Notes under the pieces: generated by a model
The model's database searches: none
Seen by the model: only the letters and a program-made list of their open reading frames with translations
Told to the model about the DNA's origin: nothing
Origin: Treponema sp.
GTDB lineage: Bacteria > Spirochaetota > Spirochaetia > Treponematales > Breznakiellaceae
Assembly (NCBI GenBank): GCA_009781915.1
Contig: WQUW01000010.1
Span: forward strand, 1-38,990
Length of the DNA: 38,990 nucleotides
Direction: 5' to 3'
Shown: positions 29,922 through 32,190 of the stretch, in pieces
Layout: the number at the start of each line of letters is the position of its first letter
Position numbering within the stretch: the stretch's first letter is position 1
Made by a program: the position numbers and the translations under genes

Positions 29922-30476
29922 ATGTCTGACAGAGACGAACTTGAACTTGACGATGCTGAATCCTCGAACATGGGCCCCCAGAAGCGGGCTTCCGGCTTGG
30001 TCGCGCTGTTGCCGAATATGCTCAAATTCGTGGCGATAGGGCTAGGCGCGGTGCTTTTTATTGTTACCGTTTCCGTTATTACCCACAATATCCTTAACAG
30101 GGGCGGGCGGGCTCAGACGGTTATCCCCACGACATCCCCCTTTATCGGGGCCCGGCCCAGCTTTTCGGCGTTTACCGCCATTGGGGAAATTAGAACGACG
30201 ACCAACGATCCGGTTCCATTCGCCGTGGTGGTGAACATGGTCATACTGTTTGACCAGAACGATAACGCCGCCGCCATGGAATTGTCCGAAAGGGTACACG
30301 AACTGCGTGATTTTGTGCGGGTGTTTTTCCGTGCCCGCCGCGCGGACGAACTGAGGCCGGAAAACGAGCCCCGGCTGCGGCAGGAAATGATAGAGCACCT
30401 GAACACAAGGATTCTTAATTCCGCGCGGGTGCGGATGATTACGTTTAACCAGCTTGACGTGATACAGATGCCGTAG
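29922..30476 (+). CDS. fliL: Flagellar basal-body protein FliL
   Basis: A 184-aa protein with an acidic cytoplasmic start, one membrane helix (about 36-60) and a periplasmic FliL domain ending in RVRMITFNQLDVIQMP. FliL rings surround and support the stator. GGAGG precedes the ATG. In other treponemes fliM and fliN follow at once; here the stop codon is followed directly by a palindromic repeat element and no fliM is seen to the window end. Confidence 0.9.
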   Translation: MSDRDELELDDAESSNMGPQKRASGLVALLPNMLKFVAIGLGAVLFIVTVSVITHNILNRGGRAQTVIPTTSPFIGARPSFSAFTAIGEIRTTTNDPVPFAVVVNMVILFDQNDNAAAMELSERVHELRDFVRVFFRARRADELRPENEPRLRQEMIEHLNTRILNSARVRMITFNQLDVIQMP

Positions 30477-30666
30477 CCCCCCTGCCGCGCGTGAGCATTC
30501 CCGCATAAAGCTCCGGCAGGGGAGGATATACGGTTTAAGAATCCCGCATGGGGAACCCGCTACGGAGCCACTGTCTCCTTCGCGGAGATGCCACGCAAAT
30601 GGCTTCTTAAACCGTATATCCTCCCCTGCCGGGCATTGTACTGATGGCTCACGCGCGGCGGGGGCA
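30477..30666. repeat. Long palindromic element, copy 1
   Basis: This roughly 190-bp element begins at the base after the fliL stop. Its ends form an imperfect inverted repeat of C/G runs plus the perfect arms CCGCGCGTGAGC (30485-30496) and GCTCACGCGCGG (30647-30658). Inside are perfect 29-base arms (30513-30541 and 30604-30632) around a 62-base centre, which contains CTACGGAGCCAC and a small hairpin TCTCC-TTCGC-GGAGA. A diverged copy in the opposite orientation is at 31993-32190. It encodes no protein. It could be a miniature mobile element, a structured RNA or both. Confidence 0.85.
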
Positions 30667-30855
30667 TTGCGGGGGGGAAGACGCATTTCTGAAAAAACCT
30701 CACGCCAACCCTCCGTAGGAGGGTTGACACGACCTGCATTACTGTGCTAGCGTTGCCACATGATGCGTGGTGTAACTGCGAACAGCCAAGACTATTTCCC
30801 GAATTTGAGCGGCTTTTGCCCGAATTCGCCTAATTTGGCACATTTTCTTCCATTA

Positions 30856-30876
30856 ACACACACACACACACACACA
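30856..30876. repeat. (AC)10 microsatellite
   Basis: A run of 21 alternating A and C bases lies about 240 bases before the lipoprotein ATG. Runs of this length can change by slippage; any effect on the downstream gene is inference. Confidence 0.9.
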
Positions 30877-30984
30877 TAAGACTCACTCGATCCTTTCGTT
30901 AAAAAATTTACCCAAAATTTACCATTTTTCCCACCCACATCCCGGTCAGGCATCGCAGAAGGAAAGATTTCTCTTCGTAATAAC

Positions 30985-31014
30985 AGCCCAAAGCAGAGAT
31001 TGCGGCGGGCTTTT
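30985..31014 (+). terminator. Terminator-like hairpin in the lipoprotein leader (possible attenuator)
   Basis: AGCCC (30985-30989) pairs with GGGCT (31007-31011), and GCA with TGC inside, separated by a small internal loop; TTT follows. It is a modest intrinsic terminator about 100 bases before the lipoprotein start. Confidence 0.4.
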
Positions 31015-31048
31015 ATTGTGCCCCGTTGGGGTATGTCTGCCTGTAAGG

Positions 31049-31092
31049 GCGGGTGATCAATCTCGTGATTACCCGCTTAAAAACAAAGCGGG
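31049..31092 (+). promoter_or_regulatory. Two mutually exclusive hairpins before the lipoprotein gene
   Basis: Stem A pairs 31049-31059 with 31066-31076 (11 bp, one G-U). Stem B pairs CCCGCTT (31072-31078) with AAGCGGG (31086-31092). Both need bases 31072-31076, so only one can form. Stem B ends 11 bases before the AGGGAG ribosome binding site. No known riboswitch consensus is recognised. Confidence 0.45.
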
Positions 31093-31117
31093 GTCACAAA
31101 TCAAGGGAGTGTTTTCT

Positions 31118-31879
31118 ATGAAGAACACATTTAGGTTTTTAGGAATTATTGCGTTGGTTGCGGCAATCGGGTTTTCAATGGTGGCCTGCGACACCGGCAG
31201 TACCAATGCCGGAGATGGGTTGCCGCCTGCGGGAGACGGCAGTATCACGTTTGTCCCTGGCGCTCCGCCGGAGAGGTTTCCAGGGGTTGTTGATCAGGCC
31301 GGGGCTCCAGTTAACATTACTCCAGCGATTGAGTTTACCCATGATCGGGAATTTGACGGGACTGGCTCGTGGCCCATAGCTATATCCGTCATTGCTGATA
31401 ATCCGGGCGACTGGGAAATACACTTGGACGGCAATGCCTTGTATGTCATGCTTGGAACGCCAATGGAGGCCGCGTTAACGCCCGCTTCTGATTGGCTTGA
31501 TGGCATGCGCGCTGGACTTAATCCCCACACAGGCAGTATCAGCGCTTCGGCAGGATTAAGGGTACTTGTTATTGACGGCTTTACCGGGGCGGGCCGGAGC
31601 GTTTATTGGCGAGCGCCTCCGGGCAATGTTCCAGCCGAATTTTATTACGAAGAAAATGAAGCTTTTTTTGTGTACGCCAGCATTGCGGGAACAATCCGTG
31701 GCGTTCTTAGGTTTTATGACGGGGGGCGTCTTGCCGGAACCACCGCTATGAATATGGACTTACGGCAAGGCTGGAACATAGCATTTTGGACATTTGTAGT
31801 TGATATGGTTTCGCAAACTTTTTCTTACACTGGTATTTCCGGAATACCCGGCAATAACTTCAGATGGGTTCTTGACTAA
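31118..31879 (+). CDS. Exported lipoprotein of unknown function between palindromic elements
   Basis: The 253-aa protein has a lipoprotein signal of the type MKNTFRFLGIIALVAAIGFS ending in MVAC-DTGS, very common in large treponemal lipoprotein families. The mature part is rich in Gly, aromatic residues and short beta-strand-like stretches (ITPAIEFTHD, WEIHLDGNALYVML, GVLRFYDGGRLAG) and probably forms a beta sandwich. I do not recognise a family. ATG 31118 is chosen because AGGGAG lies 8 bases upstream; the frame opens at 31016. Two oppositely oriented palindromic elements flank the gene. Confidence 0.8.
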   Translation: MKNTFRFLGIIALVAAIGFSMVACDTGSTNAGDGLPPAGDGSITFVPGAPPERFPGVVDQAGAPVNITPAIEFTHDREFDGTGSWPIAISVIADNPGDWEIHLDGNALYVMLGTPMEAALTPASDWLDGMRAGLNPHTGSISASAGLRVLVIDGFTGAGRSVYWRAPPGNVPAEFYYEENEAFFVYASIAGTIRGVLRFYDGGRLAGTTAMNMDLRQGWNIAFWTFVVDMVSQTFSYTGISGIPGNNFRWVLD

Positions 31880-31992
31880 GCAAAATATTGACCACAAGCC
31901 ACGCCTGAGTACGCGCAACCCGCATACTCAGGCGGCATTCCCGGTTCCTCCGGGGATGCCGGGCGCAGATGTTCTGCGGAGTCCCCCATCAA
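31880..31992. repeat. Tandem hairpins after the lipoprotein gene
   Basis: CGCCTGAGT/ACTCAGGCG (31902-31934, 9-bp perfect stem) is followed by GGCATTCCCGG/CCGGGGATGCC (31934-31960, 11 bp with one G-U). No T run follows. They may act as 3' end structures for the lipoprotein mRNA. No coding region is seen. Confidence 0.5.
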
Positions 31993-32190
31993 TGCCCCCG
32001 TTGCGCGTGAGCCAGCGTGACAATGCCCGGCAGGGGAGGATATACGGTTTAAGAAGCCATTTTGCCCAGATTCTAGGCGTAGGAGACCGTGGCTCCGTAG
32101 CCGTGTTCCCTGGGCGGGCTTCTTAAACCGTATATCCTCCCCTGCCGGAGCTTTTGGCGGGAATGTTGGCTCACGCACGGCGGGGGGGCA
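31993..32190. repeat. Long palindromic element, copy 2 (inverted relative to copy 1)
   Basis: The element has end repeats TGCCCCC...GGGGGGGCA, sub-terminal perfect arms GCGTGAGCCA/TGGCTCACGC (32005-32014, 32167-32176), and perfect 32-base inner arms (32027-32058, 32117-32148) around a 58-base centre. Read on the minus strand it aligns with copy 1 over its whole length: the 29-base inner arm is identical, the centre shares CTACGGAGCCAC and GTCTCCT, and the unequal spacers outside the arms (ATTCCCGC..AAAGCTC and GGGCATTGT) match in order. That fixes the opposite orientation. Confidence 0.85.

Follow-up and report, generated by a model that had tools for sequence, protein, structure and literature searches.

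Long intergenic palindromes with a conserved core and freely changing arms in one family of spirochetes

Introduction

To our knowledge, it is mostly their conserved ends that define the palindromic repeats of bacteria; RAYT-type enzymes, RAYTs being IS200-like Y1 transposases, move them in the cases that are understood. BIME- and BOX-type repeats are modular intergenic mosaics with several hairpin modules, and MITEs are short, non-autonomous elements present in many copies with inverted ends. The REPINs of Pseudomonas are paired REP sequences, in which the ends are conserved and the centre varies (PMC3116915). The GTAG- and CGTC-tagged REPs are dispersed palindromes whose dimers are able to form one large hairpin, the CGTC class being without a dedicated transposase (PMC3733652). 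Inverted repeats are also subject to template switching between their arms (quasipalindrome correction), a process that makes the arms identical (PMC8604942, PMC7202029).

Here we analyse a stretch of 38,990 nt from a Treponema genome, hereafter the window, in which two long palindromes lie. The family to which they belong is large and undescribed. Its core is asymmetric and conserved, pairing constrains its arms, and its copies, spread over at least 17 genera, lie between genes at positions that change. Like REPINs (PMC3116915), its members are high-copy, non-autonomous intergenic hairpins that show compensatory changes; unlike REPINs, they conserve the centre and vary the arms, come without a RAYT in this genome, and lack small-hairpin monomers across the family. 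Unlike the GTAG- and CGTC-tagged REPs (PMC3733652), the element is without either tag, measures ~190 nt and possesses a strand-specific core. The element resembles REPINs and BIMEs, yet the RAYT, tag and small-hairpin features, for each of which it was tested, were not found. As in BIME- and BOX-type repeats, the organisation is that of a modular intergenic mosaic, but one core is common to at least 17 genera while the arms change freely. The short length, many copies and terminal inverted repeats recall MITEs, from which the element differs in that its ends vary between copies and between genomes and no transposase with matching ends was found. Integron attC sites were considered and rejected: the element bears no core-site motifs at its base, and its conserved part lies near the tip. 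The logic of the element is reversed with respect to known palindromic repeats and no known mover was found, yet it is present in no fewer than 48 genomes, all of a single bacterial family.

Results

The two copies in the window are oppositely oriented (Table 1), and the perfect inner arms, unequal spacers and related centre that an earlier note had described from this DNA were confirmed in both. In copy 1 the inner arms extend to 32 bp when one mismatch is admitted. The outer arms span 18-20 bp and agree at 94% in copy 1 and at 85% in copy 2. Unequal spacers and a CTACGGAGCCAC centre are found in both copies, which share blocks of 80-83 nt at 90% and 81% identity. For neither copy was an equally good fold obtained among shuffled sequences (0/200).

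Table 1. Positions of the two palindromic elements and adjoining features in the window
Feature	Position	Strand	Remarks
Element copy 1, complete	30477..30666	+	fold z -11.7; R1 model match 30510-30635
Copy 1 outer left arm, CCCCTGCCGCGCGTGAGC, pairing with 30647-30664	30479..30496	+	inverted repeat, 94%
Copy 1 outer right arm, GCTCACGCGCGGCGGGGG	30647..30664	+	partner of 30479..30496
Copy 1 inner left arm, 29 bp, matching 30604-30632 perfectly	30513..30541	+	
Copy 1 conserved central core, inner stem and GCTACGGAGCC..TGTCTCCTTCGC hairpin	30542..30603	+	conserved across genera
Copy 1 inner right arm	30604..30632	+	
Mosaic 3' tail of copy 1, a module of CATTGCGGGGGGGAAGACGCATTTCTG type that recurs after other copies	30667..30693	+	3' limit approximate
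Element copy 2, complete, core strand minus	31993..32188	-	fold z -10.3; R1 model match 32024-32151
Copy 2 inner left arm as read on the core strand, perfect over 32 bp	32117..32148	-	inverted repeat
Copy 2 inner right arm as read on the core strand, perfect over 32 bp	32027..32058	-	inverted repeat
Copy 2 conserved central core	32059..32116	-	
Copy 2 mosaic 3' tail (CATTGATGGGGGACTCCGCAGAACATCTGCGCCCGGC...)	31936..31992	-	outer limit approximate
fliL-like gene, stop codon directly abutting copy 1	29922..30476	+	context

Searching the whole genome (2.82 Mb in 180 contigs, 97% complete) at the DNA level returned 286 candidates, out of which 40 scored full-length copies showed 90-96% identity. 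The 27-nt inner arm, with three mismatches allowed, occurred 173 times forward and 168 times in reverse, compared with 0 occurrences for the same arm read backwards. These ~340 arm occurrences therefore correspond to ~170 elements, so that the two copies first noticed are both present while their number was a far too low estimate. The ends of many contigs fall within an element.

From about half of the genome (1.37 Mb), taken as stretches, we collected 82 long copies together with fragments. In an alignment of 63 full copies the ends bear C runs with a GCCGCGCGTGAGC arm, the spacer varies, the inner arm hardly changes and the centre is conserved; terminal inverted repeats were present in these aligned copies as well as in the window. 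The spacer types, read from left to right, were X..Y in 42 copies, X..X in 6 and Y..Y in 5. Minor subfamilies (L048, L052, L057, L086, L094 and L099) possess wholly different yet matching arms around the same centre. The outer ends are also found alone, as hairpins of 42-50 nt, in this genome's set only. Truncated left halves pass into the full copy that follows, in four cases at the hairpin tip (GGTCTC) and in three after GTGAGC, and the right-side tails are mosaics of other recurring modules.

BLAST against 58 related genomes found no relative of the element, which suggested a species-specific repeat; this interpretation was overturned by covariance models. Model R1, built from the copies of this genome, matched in other genera with E-values down to 5e-15. 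A MAFFT alignment across genera lost the arms, and a structure-fitted alignment and model R3 were used instead; R3, built from foreign copies only, recovered this genome with an E-value of 6.8e-22. Among 394 genomes of the order, R3 was positive in 47 genomes beyond this one, distributed over at least 17 genera and all within one family, and a phylum sample of 393 genomes added no match outside the family. Many positive genomes carry at least eight scored copies, and the element was found in none of three same-genus genomes, indicating a patchy distribution. The combined BLAST and covariance-model search of the genome and of related spirochetes, proposed beforehand as the check on the family, produced many further copies, including copies in other genera. 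Rfam models gave no match at gathering or permissive thresholds, with just long-hairpin look-alikes, for example microRNA models, below the cut-off; the family is undescribed, and the suggestion that it was real and new holds with respect to Rfam. Among viruses, the exact arm had 0 matches and the core pattern gave four chance-like matches without arms.

The foreign copies possess an asymmetric centre, GGAA..GC.NCGGAGCC..loop..GGTCTCCTNCG..AGAA, and share cores of the type GGAA..GC.NCGGAGCC..loop..GGTCTCCTNCGGC..AGAA..CAAATG, which include conserved unpaired bases. Functional RNAs likewise have conserved unpaired bases. The foreign arms differ between genomes and often also between copies within one genome. 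The divergence that the earlier note had assigned to the centre is not borne out: from genus to genus it is the arms that diverge, whereas the centre is conserved. The C/G ends and the GCGTGAGC arm that it listed are features of this genome's copies and not of the family, and the identical inner arms mark one amplified subfamily in this genome. In a genome of another genus (G022), we observed more elaborate nested palindromes with GAATTCGCCCAGGCATACC.. arms (L131:291-425, L131:1501-1652 and L136:1947-2120); their GTAGAATTCGCC / GGCGAGGAATTCCA core part is common with the family and their upper stem is different.

Pairing was quantified in two sets of copies. In 27 diverse copies of this genome, changes on both sides were found in 24 of 40 pairs, and 96.5% of cells were paired, compared with 87.3% in shuffled and 32-50% in slid alignments. 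In 33 foreign copies, double changes occurred in 24 of 24 arm pairs and 95.1% of cells were paired (58.8% shuffled, 35-45% slid); because this alignment (A5) was fitted to the structure, its pairing counts lean towards the structure, and the arms are also readable directly in the sequences. The arms are almost purely Watson-Crick: the inner-arm pairs of 74 copies of this genome comprised 2144 Watson-Crick, 11 G-U, 21 A-C and 14 other pairs. On the core strand, distinct-context events pooled over the copies of this and other genomes amounted to 25 G-U versus 44 A-C.

In some copies of type X..X or Y..Y, rare variants on one side are mirrored exactly on the other, with perfect arms of 53-64 nt (L038, L050, L066 and L071), and a further copy (L069) bears a partial conversion tract of 38 nt. 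Mirrored variants of this kind are what copying one arm from the other, in a template-switch process, would leave. In these five copies the arms were made identical, as in quasipalindrome correction, which is however a mutational process and no element, and which leaves the conserved core and the dispersal unexplained. Template copying alone could account for much of the covariation without any hairpin function. The strong covariation and the mirrored rare variants together support what had been proposed from the two window copies, selection on pairing or conversion between arms.

The elements are intergenic, with only 2 of the 82 long copies overlapping a predicted gene. Where the left end faces the 3' end of a gene, it lay within -30 to +16 nt of the stop codon in 33 of 39 cases, compared with 16% expected from random placement in comparable gaps, an approximate figure given that genes were called by a simple script and that the copies are not independent. 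The first base of copy 1 is the base right after the fliL-like stop codon, and in the same-genus genome G001 an ordinary terminator-like hairpin follows fliL at this place. In a few copies, as in XRE-type genes, the stop codon of the gene is the TGA within the element's own GCGTGAGC. In many cases an element thus seems to have taken the place of a gene's 3' region or native terminator. Other copies lie upstream of genes or between divergent genes, and no preference in direction was detected relative to co-directional flanking genes (same 10, opposite 14, p=0.54). A multi-copy family of XRE-type regulator genes ends directly at the element (L050, L054, L044, L099 and L111), with some members using the element's TGA.

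In other genomes the flanking genes are diverse. The element lies upstream of an aldolase gene in one genome and downstream of it in another; among the few flanking genes shared between genomes, none clearly has the element in the same place. The same-genus genomes, only ~74% identical, were too diverged to yield a clean empty site or a target duplication.

The genome-wide search for mobile genes covered three families. Y1_Tnp (PF01797, RAYT) had no match in this genome, whereas control genomes did match. DDE_Tnp_1 had two matches, each single-copy, and a DDE transposase was rejected as the mover on these grounds; no multi-copy transposase was found in the 1.37 Mb examined. These searches, which linked no transposase to the element, bear out the earlier remark that none is visible. 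The sole RVT_1 gene of the genome (L160, G000:C132:2074-2655) encodes 333 aa and lies between FGE-like proteins ending in GFRVARP; judged by eye from these neighbours, the locus looks like a diversity-generating retroelement with a target and template copy. With no element nearby, reverse transcriptase was likewise rejected as the mover.

SbcD belongs to a complex that attacks long palindromes. SbcD (TIGR00619) had no match in this 97% complete genome, which is rich in long palindromes, and scored above the cut-off in 24 of 40 genomes searched. As these include palindrome-bearing relatives, the absence of SbcD is at most permissive.

Discussion

With somewhat more confidence than an even chance, we interpret the window features as copies of a DNA palindrome that is found family-wide, looks mobile and is non-autonomous. 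In this reading the core would be recognised, and the arms, copied from one another as templates, would only need to pair. The unit would be one long hairpin, roughly 130-230 nt in length, with an asymmetric bulged core near the tip of a long, sequence-free stem. We infer mobility as DNA through a single-stranded intermediate, whereby a mobilising or processing enzyme would recognise the core, most likely as a single-stranded hairpin exposed in replication. The arms would need pairing only, with their perfection kept largely by arm-to-arm template copying, and new copies would land between genes, often at gene 3' ends, the left end apparently taking over from the native terminator or 3' region.

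An unlikely alternative is that the element works as a structured non-coding RNA, or in cis at the 3' end of an mRNA as a terminator, a stabiliser or a signal for processing, its long stem being variable and its recognition core conserved. The asymmetric core with its conserved unpaired bases and the very stable folds of both window copies would suit such an RNA, and many copies begin immediately behind a stop codon, the site of action expected of a 3' hairpin. However, if the core strand acted as RNA, G-U should outnumber A-C on it, and the opposite was observed; the stems are almost purely Watson-Crick, orientation relative to genes is balanced, some copies are found upstream of genes or in divergent intergenic gaps, and Rfam gave no match. 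A weak RNA effect from the opposite strand would fit the slight excess of A-C. The Watson-Crick arms without G-U excess, the lack of orientation preference and the arm-to-arm copying lead us to favour a palindrome acting as DNA, and the giant RNA hairpin envisaged in the earlier note is accordingly disfavoured.

Two further explanations both appear quite improbable to us. In one, a RAYT since lost once moved the element, which would be a dimer of small palindromes of the REP/BIME/REPIN type and would now be drifting. In this genome the outer 42-50 nt do occur alone as small hairpins, the long element resembles two of them around a core, and it forms mosaics with other small hairpin modules; REPINs too show compensatory changes (PMC3116915), and a single large hairpin may form from a REP dimer (PMC3733652). 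This origin is opposed by the lack of a Y1 transposase in the genome and by the left ends, within 6 nt of which GTAG occurred in 4 of 79 copies and CGTC in 1 of 79, as well as by the conservation across genera of the centre and not of the ends. Moreover, isolated arms folded no better than shuffles in any group (mean z -0.02, 0.19 and 0.02), which ruled out REP monomers in the arms. The other explanation, marginally the less probable, is a passive repeat that spreads by duplication and ectopic recombination of intergenic mosaics, without dedicated mobility and with arms perfected by template switching. The mosaic tails, the arm conversion tracts, the apparent co-duplication with the XRE-type gene family and the failure to find a transposase all agree with it, but such a process accounts poorly for a core conserved across at least 17 genera while the arms turn over, for ~170 dispersed copies with mostly unrelated flanking genes, and for a precise left end near stop codons.

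Returning to the recognised DNA palindrome, we tentatively raise the possibility, to which we give rather low credence, that the family constitutes a distinct class of bacterial mobile DNA hairpin. Its strand-specific core near the tip would be the site of a chromosomal enzyme, and its arms, devoid of sequence information, perfectly paired and specific to each lineage and often to each copy, would be built or renewed by fold-back copying during movement. The core offers a defined bait of ~70 nt for finding the enzyme, and the genome provides a natural test of long-palindrome tolerance and repair where no SbcD was detected. Being so often at gene 3' ends, the elements probably shape transcript ends too, and they fragment assemblies, as the many contigs ending inside one illustrate.

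Additional observations

An Rfam 6A RNA match of 49.6 bits, above the gathering score, was found at L199:527-577. Between the two inverted elements of the window lies a lipoprotein-like gene without a Pfam match (31118-31876), and G001 has an unrelated gene in this place downstream of fliL. Upstream of the lipoprotein-like gene, a promoter-like stretch, TTGACA..TGCTAGC, is located at 30706-30800 and recurs near other elements (L052, L082 and L104). The window also contains a (CA)n run at 30857-30877, (CA)n being among the most frequent 16-mers of the genome.
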